Part shown: one piece after another, positions 14,567 through 32,824 of the stretch
Position numbering within the stretch: position 1 is the stretch's first letter
Layout of the letters: each line of letters opens with the position of its first letter
Source of the DNA: Akkermansiaceae bacterium
GTDB lineage: Bacteria; Verrucomicrobiota; Verrucomicrobiia; Verrucomicrobiales; Akkermansiaceae
Reading direction: 5' to 3'
DNA length: 41,604 bases
NCBI GenBank assembly: GCA_029866215.1
Contig: JARWZU010000081.1
Location: 1 to 41,604 of the forward strand
Translations under genes and position numbers: made by a program
Notes under the pieces: generated by a model
Told to the model about the DNA's origin: nothing
Databases searched by the model: none
What the model saw: the letters and a program-made list of their open reading frames with translations, nothing else

Positions 14567-14924
14567 GGGGGCGTTCTGGTTTCGACGGGATGTTTGACGC
14601 ATGGGTTGCACGTAGAGGTTGATCGGCTGGCCTCTTTAAAAGCCGTTCAAAAAAAATAAATGCAGACTCTAACGAGCTCGCACTGGCCGCTTAATTGACG
14701 ACCACGTCAGAACCCCGACACCTGCTGAGGGCAATGGCGAACACTTAGCAGGCTGGGACTAAAGTCGGGGCACCGGGCTTTCTTCCGAGATCAAACAGGT
14801 TTCTAGGATGAGCAACGCTGCATGAGGGCCCAGTTCATCCGAAGCTCTAGACATCATGCTAAACGTGTAGATGCCCGTGTTGACGGCGTTTCGGACAGGG
14901 GTTCGACTCCCCTCGCCTCCACCA
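14567..14924 (+). ncRNA. ssrA: Transfer-messenger RNA (tmRNA)
   Basis: GGGGGCG at 14567-14573 pairs with CGCCTCC at 14914-14920 to form the acceptor stem (one G-U), followed by encoded ACCA to 14924. The TTTCGACGGG element of the tRNA-like D-loop follows the 5' stem, and a T-arm with GGTTCGACTCC precedes the 3' stem. The tag frame reads GCA at 14662 to TAA at 14692-14694, giving ADSNELALAA, a normal proteolysis tag ending in LAA-type residues. Together with SmpB it rescues stalled ribosomes. The exact resume codon is inferred from the tag. Confidence 0.97.
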
Positions 14925-18095: not shown

Positions 18096-18166
18096 TAGCC
18101 TCACTAGGGCTCGAACCTAGAATAACGGAATCAAAATCCGGGGTGTTACCATTACACTATGAGGCT
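18096..18166 (-). tRNA. tRNA-Gln (anticodon UUG)
   Basis: Read on the minus strand, AGCCTCA pairs with TGAGGCT as a 7-bp acceptor stem with discriminator A. The D-arm is GTGT/ACAC, the anticodon loop is TTTTGAT giving UUG (Gln), and the T-arm is CTAGG-TTCGAGC-CCTAG. The CCA end is not encoded. Four of five anticodon-stem pairs form; the 27-43 pair is C-U. The gene is 71 nt long. Confidence 0.93.
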
Positions 18167-26584: not shown

Positions 26585-27337
26585 TCAAACGAATTGCTCC
26601 ATCACCACGGCTTTGGCGTAGTCACGGTTGAGGCGAGCGATGTGATCAACGCTGATCTCCTTTGGACAGGCCGCCTCACACTCGTATTGGTTCGTGCAGT
26701 TGCCGAACCCTTCAGCATCCATCTGACGCACCATCGCCAACACCCGCTTTTGGCGTTCTGGCTGCCCTTGCGGGAGGTGACCCAAGTGGGAAACTTTCGC
26801 AGCGACGAACAACATCGCAGAGGCGTTTTTGCAGGAAGCAACACACGCGCCACACCCGATGCAAGCCGCCGCGTCGAATGCCGCATCGGCCTGATGCTTC
26901 GGGATCGGCACCGAGTTCGCATCCACCCCAGAGCCCGTGCGCACGTCGATGTATCCGCCGGCCGCCACAATCCGGTCAAATGCCGAGCGGTCCACCATCA
27001 AGTCCCGCACGATCGGGAAGGAATTCGCACGGAAGGGCTCGATCCAGATCGTGTCGCCATCGCGGAACTTCCGCATGTGCACTTGGCAAGTCGCCGTGGC
27101 CCGCTCTTTGCTGTGCGGAACTCCATTGATCGTGAGCGAACACGACCCGCAAATCCCCTCTCGGCAATCGTGCTCGAAATGAATCGGCTCTTCAGTGCCC
27201 TTGATCAAACCCTCGTTGACAATGTCGAGCATTTCCAAAAAGGAAGCTTCGGTTGGGATTCCCTTGGCATCATAGGTGACAATTTTGCCTTGTTCCTTCG
27301 GTCCGGCCTGCCGCCATACTTTGAGTGTCAGATTCAT
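26585..27337 (-). CDS. sdhB: Succinate dehydrogenase / fumarate reductase iron-sulfur subunit
   Basis: SdhB links the flavoprotein subunit to the membrane anchor of complex II. The 250-residue protein carries the [2Fe-2S] cluster ligands Cys58, Cys63, Cys66 and Cys84 ([11 protein letters not shown] and TATCQ), and C-terminal ferredoxin ligands in [13 protein letters not shown] (Cys159, 162, 165, 169) and [13 protein letters not shown] (Cys214, 220, 224). The sequence is of the non-proteobacterial short type. The sdhC and sdhA genes are not next to it: upstream is a 0.7-kb gene-free region with a tandem array, so the subunits must be encoded elsewhere or beyond. Confidence 0.94.
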
Positions 27338-27354
27338 GGAGAATTTCGATGCGA

Positions 27355-27383
27355 GATAAATAAAAAATGACTGAGCGAGCCAA
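27355..27383 (-). promoter_or_regulatory. Weak candidate promoter upstream of sdhB
   Basis: On the minus strand TTGGCT (27383-27378) and TTTATC (27360-27355) are separated by 17 bases. Both boxes match the sigma-70 consensus only partly. A start near 27348 would give a leader of about ten bases. Verrucomicrobial promoter preferences are not well known to me. Confidence 0.25.
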
Positions 27384-27616
27384 CTGGACTCACTCCGACC
27401 AAAGAATAATTGGGTTTAGGCTCTGAGCTAGGAGAAAAATTGAGATTCGCGCGTGATCCATGGTTTTTTTGGGCAATCCCCCTGAAAACACCCCTCAAAG
27501 TATCCGCCCCCAGCACAAGGCTCCCCTCGAAGTCCCTCTCAGGCCTCCCCCATCCACTCACCTTCAGCCTCGGAGGTTAAAAAACCTCGCTCCCACCCAT
27601 CTCCCACCCCCAGGCG

Positions 27617-27935
27617 CGGTCATGACAGCCTCGCCCAAGGTGAGTGCAGTCTGTTAGAAGGTGATGACAGCGGACCTTAAGGTGCTTGCAGAACGTGCCA
27701 AGGTGCATGCAAAAACGCCTCTAGGTGCGTGCGAGTCCGCCCCTAGGTCGCCGCAGCCCCGCCCTAGGTGAGTGCAGGATGGCTCTACCCCCGTGCAGAA
27801 CGGCTCAAGGTCCATGCGAGTTGATGCCAAGGTTCGTACAGAACGACCCAAGGTGCGTGTGAATAGGCCTCTAGGTTTGCACAAAACGGCACGAGGTAAG
27901 TGCAAATTCACCCAAGGTGCGTGTAAAACTGCACG
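27617..27935. repeat. Degenerate tandem array of fifteen 21/22-bp units
   Basis: Units start at 27617, 27638, 27659, 27680, 27701, 27723, 27745, 27766, 27787, 27808, 27830, 27851, 27873, 27894 and 27915. Steps are 21 bp ten times and 22 bp four times. The first four bases are AGGT in 13 of 15 units; positions 5-11 tend to GCGTGCA and the unit often ends in CCCA, CCNA or CTCT. The middle six bases vary freely. There are no unique spacers, no palindromic unit and no steady reading frame. No cas gene or transposase is near. Function unknown. Confidence 0.85.
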
Positions 27936-28039
27936 AACCCTCTACTTGGATCACTCAGCCTCAGCCACTTACAGAAATCACTCTGCCGCCAGCTTTGCAG
28001 CACCCCTTCCACCCCGTATTCGCCATGTTTCTCGAATCC

Positions 28040-29833
28040 TCAGGCTTTCTCCGCCGCGTTTTTTGGATCCTTGTAAGTCGATTGCACGTACACCTCGCGC
28101 AGCAACTTGTGCTCGATCTGGCAAGGGCTGTGCGCCATGAGATCGGCACCTTTGTTGTTCTTTGGAAAGGCAATCACCTCACGGATGCTATCTTCACCCG
28201 CCACCAACATGGCGATCCGATCCAGTCCAAGCGCCAAGCCACCATGCGGAGGAGCACCAAATCGGAAAGCGTCTAAAAGGTGACCAAATTTGATCTGCTG
28301 TTCCTCGGGCCCCACTCCCAAGACGCTAAACATCTTGGCTTGCAGATCCTTTTCATGAATCCGAATGGACCCACCGCCGAGCTCATAGCCGTTCAAGACG
28401 ACGTCATAAGCCACCGCGCGGACATTCGCATAGTCACCCGCTTCGAGCAGAGCAAGATCATCCGGGTGCGGACGCGTGAACGGATGATGAACCGCCGCCC
28501 AGTGGCCCGATTCTTCATCATGCGCCAGCAGCGGGAAATCCACCACCCACAGGAAATTGTAGGCATTGGAATCCTTGGTCAGCTCCATCATCGCGGCCGA
28601 CTCCGTACGAACCCGCCCAAGAATCGTACTCACGCTCTCACGCGAGCCCGCCGCGAAGAAAACGATGTCGCCCTCTGCCAAATCCAATTTGGCAGCGACC
28701 GCCTCCTTCTCGCCATCAGTGAAGATTTTCCACAAGGGGCTCTTGTACTCGCCATTTTCAAGCTTGATGAACGCAAGGTTCTTCACCGGAAGCCCAGCCT
28801 GAACGGCGATCTCGTTGAGCCGATTCATCTGACCCGTGGTGATGCTGGCAAATCCCTTGGCATTGATCGCACGAACCACTCCGCCGCCATCGAGAATCGC
28901 ACGGAAAATCTTGAACTCCGTGGCCGCAAAAACATCGCCCAAATCGACGATTTCCATTCCATACCGCGTGTCCGGCTTGTCGGAACCATAAATGTCCATG
29001 GCATCCTGATAGGTCATCCGTGGGAAACTCGCCGGCACCTCGATGCCCAAGCCCGCTTTGAACATCGAACTCAACAGACCCTCGACCAACTGGATGATGT
29101 CCTCCTGCGTCACGAAGCTGGCCTCGATGTCGATCTGGGTGAACTCCGGCTGACGATCTGCCCGCAAGTCCTCATCGCGGAAGCAGCGAGCGATCTGGAA
29201 ATACTTCTCCATCCCCGCCACCATCAGCAACTGCTTGTATTGCTGAGGCGCTTGCGGCAGCGCGTAGAATCGACCCGGATTCAACCGCGATGGCACGAGG
29301 AAATCCCGAGCACCTTCCGGCGTCGGATTCGACAAAATCGGCGTCTCGATTTCATAGAAACCTGCATCGTCCAAGTAGCGACGCGCCGCAGAAGTGATCA
29401 CGCTGCGTTGGCGGATGTTCTGGCTCATCCGCGGACGGCGCAGGTCGAGGTAGCGGTACTTCATCCGCAGGTCTTCATTTGAAAGCTCCTTGTCGAGTTG
29501 GAAGGGCAGGACATCGGCCTTGTTGACGATGGTAAGTGCACCCGCCACGATCTCGATGGCCCCGGTGCCGATCTTCGCATTTTCCGATCCTTCAAGCCGC
29601 TTGGAAACAGTTCCAGTCACTTGAACGACGTCCTCCTCGCGAAGGGTGTGCGAAAGCGCAGAAACCTCAGGATTTTCATCGGGGTGGAATACACATTGGG
29701 TAAGCCCCTCGCGGTCGCGGAGGTCGATGAAAATGACCCCACCGTGGTCGCGGGCCGAATTCACCCAACCGATGAGCGTGACGGTTTGACCGATGTGAGA
29801 ATCGCGAAGTTCGTTGCAATGATGTGTGCGCAT
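28040..29833 (-). CDS. aspS: Aspartyl-tRNA synthetase
   Basis: AspRS charges tRNA-Asp (and possibly tRNA-Asn). The ATG at 29833 (MRTHHCNELRDSHIG) opens the OB-fold anticodon domain with VTLIGWVNSARDHGGVIFID; an upstream frame to 29914 would reach into hisS and is rejected. Class II motifs follow: motif 1 region LDLRRPRMSQNIRQRS, FLVPSRLNPGRFYALPQAPQ, motif 2 CFRDEDLRADRQPEFTQIDI, and motif 3 GGLALGLDRIAML. The bacterial GAD insertion domain (about 290-410) is present. The length of 597 residues is normal. It lies 32 bp downstream of hisS, a common pairing. Confidence 0.96.
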   Translation of the reverse strand: MRTHHCNELRDSHIGQTVTLIGWVNSARDHGGVIFIDLRDREGLTQCVFHPDENPEVSALSHTLREEDVVQVTGTVSKRLEGSENAKIGTGAIEIVAGALTIVNKADVLPFQLDKELSNEDLRMKYRYLDLRRPRMSQNIRQRSVITSAARRYLDDAGFYEIETPILSNPTPEGARDFLVPSRLNPGRFYALPQAPQQYKQLLMVAGMEKYFQIARCFRDEDLRADRQPEFTQIDIEASFVTQEDIIQLVEGLLSSMFKAGLGIEVPASFPRMTYQDAMDIYGSDKPDTRYGMEIVDLGDVFAATEFKIFRAILDGGGVVRAINAKGFASITTGQMNRLNEIAVQAGLPVKNLAFIKLENGEYKSPLWKIFTDGEKEAVAAKLDLAEGDIVFFAAGSRESVSTILGRVRTESAAMMELTKDSNAYNFLWVVDFPLLAHDEESGHWAAVHHPFTRPHPDDLALLEAGDYANVRAVAYDVVLNGYELGGGSIRIHEKDLQAKMFSVLGVGPEEQQIKFGHLLDAFRFGAPPHGGLALGLDRIAMLVAGEDSIREVIAFPKNNKGADLMAHSPCQIEHKLLREVYVQSTYKDPKNAAEKA

Positions 29834-29865
29834 GAGGAAATTGGTTAGGATGAAATCAGTGGGTG

Positions 29866-31161
29866 TTAGGCGATCAGTGGGCCATCGGGTTGGAGCAACC
29901 GAGCGGTGAGCCACTCGACGGCGGTTGCAGCATTTCCGGATTCTTCGCTGCGGTTGTTGAGAATCTTGAGCTTAAGTTCGGGATATTCCGCACCCACGAC
30001 AAGCGCGAAACGGGCCCCCGATTTCTCAGCACTTTGGAACTGCTTGGCGACCTTAGGGCTGCCCAAAGGGAGATCCGCAGAAATACCCGCACGGCGGAGA
30101 TCCGTCACCAGCCGCAGCGATTCAGCCCGCTTGGTCTCATCAGCCACCACGAGGTAAACGTCACAGTTCGCCGCATGACGCTGCAACCAAACCTCCAACT
30201 GCATGGCCGCATGCGTGGTCTCTTCGATGAGGTTCCGAATCACGTAGTCGCCCATCGCAAATCCCGTGGCGGGCAAATCGACCGCACCATCGGAAATCGT
30301 AGCGATCAAGGTGTCATACCGACCACCGCCCGCAACCGCCCGCATGGATTTCTTGGAATCAAACACCTCGAAAACCACCCCAGTGTAATACGCAAGCCCT
30401 CGGACGATCGAAAGATCCAGTTCGACAAAATCGGCAAACCCACGAGCAGCTAGATCTTCTTGGATCGCGAGATAAGCCGCCGATGCGTTCGCGGGATCTG
30501 CGATGAATCCGCGAACTTCAGCCACAGTCAGAGAAAACGCCGCAAGCTTTTGTTCTAGCACCTCGGGTTTCTCGCGCTCGATCTTATCGATGATGCCCAG
30601 GAAATCAGGCACGTTTGCCTCTGGAATCTTGCGAGCCGTCGCAAAGTCAATCCACGCCATCCGGTCCGACACTCGGACGACAAAGTCACCCGCCACAAAG
30701 CCAAACGCCAACATCGTCTCGATCGCCAGCGCGATCAATTCCGCATCGGCCGACGGCCCGCTCTCGCCAAAAATGTCGACATTGAACTGGTGGAACTCAC
30801 GTCCCCTGCCTTTCTGCGGTTTTTCGTAGCGGAAGCACTGGCCGATCTCAAACCACTTGAGCGGCTTGGGGAAATCCCTCTGGTGCTGCGCGACGACCCG
30901 CGCCAACGAGGCGGTCACCTCCGGCCGCAAGGTGACGTCTCGCCCACCTTGGTCTTCAAACCGGAACAACTGAGACGAAAGCTCACCACCCGATTTCTTC
31001 AAATAGAGCCCGGTGTCCTCCAAGATCGGCGTCTCGTACTCGACATAACCGCAGCGACGGGCCACGCCGCGCCACGTCTCGAACAAATAATTGCGGATCG
31101 CGCATTCTCGGGGAATGAAGTCGCGAAATCCTGGAAGTGCTTGGAATGTAGGACCTGCCAT
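29866..31161 (-). CDS. hisS: Histidyl-tRNA synthetase
   Basis: HisRS is a class II synthetase. The ATG at 31161 gives 431 residues starting with FQALPGFRDFIPRE; the longer frame to 31188 begins with TTG and adds low-complexity residues. Motifs are LRPEVTASLARVV (motif 1 side), CFRYEKPQKGRGREFHQFNVDIFG (motif 2, cut here between PQKG and RGRE in reading), the histidine loop SIVRGLAYYTGVVFE and AVAGGGRYD, and a C-terminal anticodon-binding domain (DVYLVVADETKRAESLRL). It is followed 32 bp on by aspS and preceded by an rlmI-like gene with a 71-bp gap. Confidence 0.95.
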   Translation of the reverse strand: MAGPTFQALPGFRDFIPRECAIRNYLFETWRGVARRCGYVEYETPILEDTGLYLKKSGGELSSQLFRFEDQGGRDVTLRPEVTASLARVVAQHQRDFPKPLKWFEIGQCFRYEKPQKGRGREFHQFNVDIFGESGPSADAELIALAIETMLAFGFVAGDFVVRVSDRMAWIDFATARKIPEANVPDFLGIIDKIEREKPEVLEQKLAAFSLTVAEVRGFIADPANASAAYLAIQEDLAARGFADFVELDLSIVRGLAYYTGVVFEVFDSKKSMRAVAGGGRYDTLIATISDGAVDLPATGFAMGDYVIRNLIEETTHAAMQLEVWLQRHAANCDVYLVVADETKRAESLRLVTDLRRAGISADLPLGSPKVAKQFQSAEKSGARFALVVGAEYPELKLKILNNRSEESGNAATAVEWLTARLLQPDGPLIA

Positions 31162-32515: not shown

Positions 32516-32824
32516 ATGGGACAACAAACGAAAAAGATCATCAAACGCCGTCGCCGCGCCGATTACGTGAAGCGCAAGAAGGAACAGGCAAAGCTCGGCG
32601 GCATCGTGAAGAAGCCCGCTGTCAAAAAGGCTGATGCCGCGAAAAAAGCTCCTGCCAAGAAGGCTGCCGCGAAAAAGGCCCCTGCAAAGAAGGTTGCGAA
32701 AAAAGTCGCCGCTGAAGCTCCAGAGATCACTGCAGAAGCTCCAGAAATTACTGCTGAGACTCCCGCAATCACTGCAGAAGCTCCAGAGACCGCCGCTGAG
32801 GCTCCCGAGTCGACAGAATCCTGA
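32516..32824 (+). CDS. Small Lys/Ala/Pro-rich histone-like protein
   Basis: The 102-residue product has a very basic start (GQQTKKIIKRRRRADYVKRK), then a stretch of AKKAPAKK-type repeats (about 36-65) like histone H1 tails, and an acidic C-terminal third with repeats of AEAPEITA / AEAPETAA (about 66-102). It resembles histone H1-like proteins of some bacteria in composition only; nucleic-acid binding by the N-terminus is inference. It has its own strong terminator and a hairpin before the ATG. No catalytic motif. A role in ribosome or nucleoid is possible. Confidence 0.8.
   Translation: MGQQTKKIIKRRRRADYVKRKKEQAKLGGIVKKPAVKKADAAKKAPAKKAAAKKAPAKKVAKKVAAEAPEITAEAPEITAETPAITAEAPETAAEAPESTES

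Follow-up and report, generated by a model that had tools for sequence, protein, structure and literature searches.

Background

Between aspS and sdhB lies a tandem array whose units of 21 or 22 bp have diverged strongly from one another, and the locus raises the question of what holds the step from unit to unit. The original prediction read it as spacing and one short core conserved over a freely varying middle, ascribed this to selection on phased binding sites or on a structured RNA and not to recent slippage, and named no element of this kind. The window is the whole stretch of DNA analysed, 41,604 nucleotides long. Genomes are labelled G (G000 being the window's own), contigs C (C10 being the window contig) and stretches of DNA L; array families are lettered, the window array being family A.

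The array in the aspS-sdhB gap

Unit starts were located by dynamic programming with permitted steps of 20-23 bp and fell at 27617, 27638, 27659, 27680, 27701, 27723, 27745, 27766, 27787, 27808, 27830, 27851, 27873, 27894 and 27915. The number of units and the two step sizes given in the original prediction were thereby reproduced, and its placement between sdhB and aspS is correct (Table 1). AGGT opens 13 of the 15 units, the exceptions being unit 1 (CGGT) and unit 9 (ACCC), and the units are strongly degenerate, with a mean major-base frequency of 0.68. The periodicity exceeded that of all 1000 dinucleotide shuffles, the lag match being 0.54 at lag 42/43 and 0.51 at lag 21/22 vs a shuffle maximum of 0.394 over all lags from 12 to 60. 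The unit-path score was 93 vs a shuffle maximum of 23, a comparison biased by a consensus derived from the array itself.

Table 1. Features of the array locus in the window.
Feature	Position	Strand	Basis or remark
sdhB, neighbouring gene	26585-27337	-	Name from the original prediction; ORF and orthologs checked
Element head, start approximate	27547-27616	+	blastn against copies; eight-copy alignment
Inverted repeat CCTCGGAGGTTAAAAAACCTCG in element head	27568-27589		
Array of 15 degenerate units	27617-27935	+	Ten steps of 21 bp, four of 22 bp; core AGGT plus TGCA
Element tail, terminal 40-bp module missing in window copy	27936-28022	+	blastn; eight-copy alignment
CGTATTCGCCAT, single in the window	28015-28026	+	Flanks the terminal module on both sides in the G040 ortholog
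aspS, neighbouring gene	28040-29914	-	Name from the original prediction; ORF and orthologs checked

Several conventional roles were rejected. In both long ORFs that cross the array, the three codon positions have changed equally, which excludes a coding array, as had been predicted, and the array is without overlap with the genes predicted by a home-made caller. The units are contiguous and have no spacers, which likewise agrees with the prediction and excludes a CRISPR array. A promoter or terminator role was rejected on the absence of a promoter-like site and on a single terminator-like site outside the array vs 0.9 in shuffles. The structured RNA offered in the original prediction found no support for family A, since the array folds no better than shuffled sequence (z of 0.1 and 0.2 on the two strands vs 30 shuffles); eight of 23 other arrays, from families B, C, D, F, G and H, did fold better than shuffles, with z of -3 or below on one or both strands. 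A transcribed array that works as a small RNA, structured or sponge-like, is very unlikely. Satellites of Bacillus coagulans are reported to be transcribed (PMC8625621), and against such a role stand the fold scores, which concern family A, the absence of an Rfam match at the array at gathering thresholds, and the absence of a sigma-70-like promoter in 27330-28060.

The sole further cluster at lag 20/21 in the scan of the window (32671-32790) lies in a stretch that looks coding. Positions 32635-32809 hold repeats of 15, 21, 30 and 42 bp and open frames, look coding and stand outside the satellite system. The window also has a tmRNA gene (14567-14924, + strand) and a tRNA gene (18096-18166, - strand).

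Copies of the element and their distribution

The window's own genome, 3.03 Mb in 88 contigs, had 10 matches, which were counted as eight copies because C38 and C82 share 140 identical bases at their contig starts and C74 was matched twice. The copies lie on C10 (the window), C86, C82/C38, C65, C42, C64, C9 and C74, and the longest stretch common to window positions 27400-28100 and a copy is 27547-28022, shared with C42 (blastn). The whole forms a dispersed element that is non-coding and intergenic, with the array in the middle between a head and a tail; several, not all, of the eight copies share the head and tail. In the window the aspS stop is 18 bp away from the element. Inspection by eye revealed neither terminal inverted repeats nor a clean target duplication, and the ends of the element are not sharply defined. 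The matched copies are 83-96% alike, including the middle of the units, and the units therefore diverged from one another before the element spread.

Among 145 genomes, searched at blastn sensitivity with up to four candidates per genome scored, family A was matched in three: its own genome, the sister species G040 with four copies, and G041 with diverged arrays at two places. The four insertions in G040 stand beside the same genes as in the window's own genome, namely at aspS and in the neighbourhoods of the C42, C64 and C9 copies. The aspS-sdhB gap is array-free in G043 (about 352 bp) and G011 (about 371 bp), and some 555 bp of the window occupy the place of some 201 bp in G043. The two G041 arrays (L034 near 960, L035 near 5840) are preceded by a palindromic sequence around GGCTGTCTCAGCCGG.

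At three of the four orthologous loci the copy in the window's own genome is closer to a paralog than to its ortholog: identity is 93% for C10-C86 vs 89% for C10 and its ortholog, 93% for C42-C86 vs 85%, and 92% for C9-C86 vs 87%. The C64 copy is closer to its ortholog (93% vs 91%). The likeness of paralogs suggests recombination between copies, and later copying of some elements may be an alternative. Behind three family A arrays (L006, L008, L002) stands another dispersed sequence, TATGGAGCAGCGGAATCCGTCCGCTGTGCC, which replaces the tail in two of them.

Other arrays in the genome

Lags from 12 to 60 were scanned in 733 kb, or 24%, of the window's own genome; the window was among the sources, and contigs C38 and C65 were picked in the knowledge that they contain family A copies. 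The scan gave 25 periodic clusters, 23 of them at lag 20-21 or 41-43, of which at least two look coding (window 32671 and L110 8341) and one (L133) is weak; a single shuffle of the same 733 kb gave no periodic cluster. Other genomes were poorer, with seven clusters in 800 kb of 19 genomes (four at lag 20/21) and, in G040, G041 and G043, three clusters in 447 kb (one at lag 41). In 20 arrays of the window's own genome, 149 of 205 steps were of 21 bp and 28 of 22 bp when steps of 19-24 bp were permitted.

The arrays were grouped into families A, B, C, D, E (22 bp), F together with I, G, H and a short J. Their units are largely unrelated: in 78 cyclic pairs of 13 consensuses, taken from this and other genomes, the only clear matches were family A with a G041 array and F with I, and the weak matches A-H and G-J had p = 0.02 uncorrected for the 78 pairs. 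This genome carries several unrelated satellite families, mostly with units of 21/22 bp, and the window array represents one of them. Some family flanks were alike by local alignment, namely the tails of F and H, the tails of D and of a G041 array, and two weaker pairs of heads. Among 99 genomes, the family C element had matches in 14, counting any part of the element, those in relatives being mostly to its first 216 positions and seldom to the array; the family F element had matches in 22, many of them on the element end, and family B in 12, several restricted to the first 32-42 positions.

The predominance of one unit size among unrelated sequences bears on a reading in which the array has no function. 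Some process of replication or repair would duplicate DNA in steps of two helical turns and yield one unit size whatever the sequence. Intergenic arrays would be tolerated, and they would spread through recombination or be carried along by other elements. This is a serious possibility, nearly as likely as the protein-based reading preferred below.

The mean step varies by family: it is 21.0 for family H and for two family F arrays (L122, L136), and about 22 for E. Long-range helical phase is therefore not a common constraint, and at most the phase between neighbouring units is kept. Predicted genes overlapped none of 25 of 26 arrays and overlapped the remaining one by 21 bp. The genes around the 26 arrays are in tandem in 10 cases, convergent in six, divergent in five and undetermined in five, with no clear preference; these calls were made with a home-made codon scorer, which overlooked the integrase beside the C86 copy.

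The terminal module

Some copies of the element end in a 40-bp module, CATTTCAGCTTTCTGCTTTCCAAATTTCCGCTTTACCCCA. With up to 11 mismatches it occurred seven times in the stretches of the window's own genome examined, and six of these occurrences lie at or close to an array (families A, F/I and J); in one of the six (L137) the array amounts to no more than a short, degenerate run of sequence overlapping the module. A pattern search of the whole genome found the module at 16 places and a reversed control at none. A 21-bp array adjoins eight of the 16, and four of the eight without one are 3-mismatch hits.

Eight of the 16 modules are directly preceded by a 21-mer that agrees with the family F unit in at least 16 of its 21 positions. 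Behind this 21-mer stand arrays of families F (L305, L310), A (L308) and J (L319, and short ones in L307 and L314) and of a further family (L311), and in L309 the 21-mer is present and the array absent. Of the other eight places, one (L306) adjoins a 21-bp array. The resemblance to the family F unit at these eight places, together with the unamplified 21-mer in L309, looks as if arrays grow from the 21-mer in place, a point in favour of a satellite without function. A sequence common to L306, L309 and L312 precedes the module or the 21-mers; in L309 and L312 it reads AACTTACACAAAA...TTGACAC, and in L312 it follows what by eye appears to be the end of a Mutator/IS256-type transposase.

The window copy is without the module. 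In the G040 ortholog (L030) the tail has about 64 bp extra, in which the module lies between two copies of CGTATTCGCCAT, and the paralogs C42 and C9 also have the module; the window copy therefore probably lost it by deletion between direct repeats, which would make the single CGTATTCGCCAT a scar.

The association of one module with several families admits a broader reading, in which many of the unrelated 21-bp satellites of this genome would be states of one class of element: the terminal 40-bp module and its adjoining 21-mer would together be an anchor, units of 21/22 bp would time and again be amplified beside it and replaced by new sequences, and a cooperative DNA-binding protein would hold the two-turn step. 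This is rather unlikely; were it true, unit sequence would turn over and the spacing and end module would persist.

Proximity to integron integrases

The C86 copy lies 179 bp from a complete integron integrase (L022:6957-7910; TIGR02249, 396.6 bits), which raises the possibility that an integron-type tyrosine recombinase acts on the array or leaves it as a by-product. Further cases are the 22-bp family E array on C3, which continues from a 5' integrase remnant (C3:1666), and contig C73 of G041 (L035:6297-6767), where a remnant with 38% identity to the C86 integrase over 157 residues (residues 38-193; tblastn) stands directly behind a family A-like array. Arrays also stand behind integrases in G128 (L056) and on a contig of candidate division KSB1, another phylum, where a 21-bp array of about 20 units (L174:4069-4483) lies some 250 bp behind an integron integrase.

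These cases were collected after the fact, and an integrase is near one of the eight element copies. With a single detector applied to both sets and a match of at least 0.50, arrays at lag 20, 21 or 42 were found at four of 30 integrase loci (L044, L052, L056, L064) vs one of 30 sdhB loci, and at a match of at least 0.45 at five vs two, the window's own genome being one in each set. Among 80 integrase loci only L174 had a strong non-coding array, and at the close homologs L045-L047 no array was flagged. Such a part of a recombinase is on this evidence very unlikely, and the association is kept as a lead only. A 5' remnant of a C86-like integrase gene was also seen at C48:25541 of G000.

Change in core and spacing

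Substitution rates within the array were compared in 11 aligned rows, with the head of C74 and C38 (the same copy as C82) left out. The whole array had 181 changes in 319 sites, of which 15 fell in the 60 sites of phases 1-4 (AGGT) and 166 in the other 259. At non-CpG sites there were 0.22 changes per site in AGGT vs 0.63 elsewhere (base-stratified permutation, p = 0.0008), a rate about 2.8-fold lower. Phases that are better conserved between units also changed less between copies (Spearman -0.61, p = 0.003). In short, AGGT is slower to change than the remainder of the unit.

Length changes within the array keep the unit step. Gains of 21 bp were found in C64 and in C9, the latter an exact duplicate of one unit, and losses of 43 bp in C128 of G040 and of 128 bp in C74, the last being exactly six units removed in register. 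An exception is a deletion in C242 of G040 that extends from unit 11 into the tail; in C194 of G040 the similarity ends 38 bp short of the contig end. No indel below unit length was found in the array copies compared. In four orthologous pairs of arrays, 993 sites held 99 substitutions and not one indel of other than whole-unit length, vs 120 substitutions with 13 indels over the 1279 sites aligned in five flank comparisons (Fisher p = 0.0008); with the mostly-ORF flank of C9 omitted, the counts were 0 indels and 99 substitutions in arrays vs 13 and 93 in flanks (p = 0.0002). The flank counts come from pairwise alignments that include the element head and tail, and seven of the 13 indels come from one flank. 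Divergence between the species was 10.0% in arrays and 9.4% in flanks (11.7% without the mostly-ORF flank), and 256 of 1480 fourfold sites (17.3%) had changed, somewhat above the array divergence.

The original prediction is thus borne out in part. The slower AGGT and the whole-unit length changes agree with conservation of core and spacing. The middle of the unit, described as freely varying, is 83-96% alike between copies. Its dismissal of recent slippage does not stand in full, given the exact unit duplicate in C9.

The slower core and the absence of small indels favour a protein that reads the spacing. In the reading tentatively preferred here, the array belongs to a spreading satellite element whose step would be held by such a DNA-binding protein. 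The putative protein would read the short core and occupy adjacent units along one face of the helix, and selection would remove indels that put neighbouring units out of phase, while the sequence between the cores drifts. New units would arise by duplication of a step of 21-22 bp, and recombination between loci would keep the copies alike. As a guess, the protein's role might be in organisation of the nucleoid or in local insulation of transcription.

The preferred reading is consistent with the copies and their orthologous placements, the step counts, the preponderance of lags 20-21 and 41-43 among the periodic clusters, the slow AGGT, the contrast in indels, the in-register loss in C74 and the intergenic placement. 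PMC8161180 reports the same constancy of size and a short core and proposes a polymerising protein. Against it stand the family-dependent mean step, the lack of a preferred gene arrangement, the array divergence, which is like that of the flanks, and the absence of family A from most relatives; unequal recombination between similar units would also yield whole-unit changes without selection. A functionless satellite would account for the flank-like divergence, for the absence from relatives and for the unit duplicate in C9, in addition to the uniform unit size, but taken alone it leaves the slower AGGT core and the absence of small indels after the array diverged unexplained.

Relation to known repeats

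The view that no named element of this kind exists needs correction, as constant-size satellites of 20-23 nt and minisatellite elements with leader and tail are published (PMC8161180, PMC4596501). Subirana and Messeguer (PMC8161180) describe, for Bacillus, tandem repeats that keep a constant size (20-21 or 52 nt) across differing sequences, and place repeats of 20-23 nt in many bacterial groups, most of them with a short core; they relate the repeat size to two helical turns and propose a polymerising nucleoid protein or small RNAs. An earlier survey is available (PMC6749651). Verrucomicrobia are unmentioned in those parts of the text of PMC8161180 considered here, and among the titles listed in searches of the open-licence literature none was on such arrays in this group.

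The present arrays resemble those satellites in that their units are non-coding and of 20-23 nt (the window array having 15, where the class calls for at least four), that a single genome holds several families without sequence relation, and that they have a conserved short core and no known function, and family A, found in three of 145 genomes (own, G040 and, diverged, G041), is species-restricted as theirs are. Compared with the same parts of PMC8161180, they differ in the strong degeneracy of the units, the head-array-tail element, the sharing of one terminal module by several families, and the measurement of change in core and spacing between copies. BrickBuilt, a MITE of Porphyromonas gingivalis that bears a minisatellite (PMC4596501), is likewise dispersed and intergenic, consists of a leader, spacer-free tandem repeats and a tail, and occurs in whole and partial copies; it has a 23-nt unit and small inverted-repeat ends, whereas here the unit is of 21/22 bp and no inverted-repeat ends were seen by eye. 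The STAR elements of staphylococci (PMC3532100) are, by their description, also interspersed intergenic direct repeats. The window array belongs to a known, unexplained class of satellites, as a variant with a carrier element and a common end module. New here are the slower change of AGGT, the whole-unit length changes without smaller indels, and the occurrence of several families beside one 40-bp module.

Implications

This genome makes it testable why some bacteria have repeats of fixed size and unrelated sequence, through its independent families, orthologs in a sister species, array-free relatives and a common end module. Spacing held by a protein would point to a nucleoid or insulator system so far unrecognised in Verrucomicrobiales; spacing set by the way in which units are copied would point to an unrecognised amplification process with a two-turn step.
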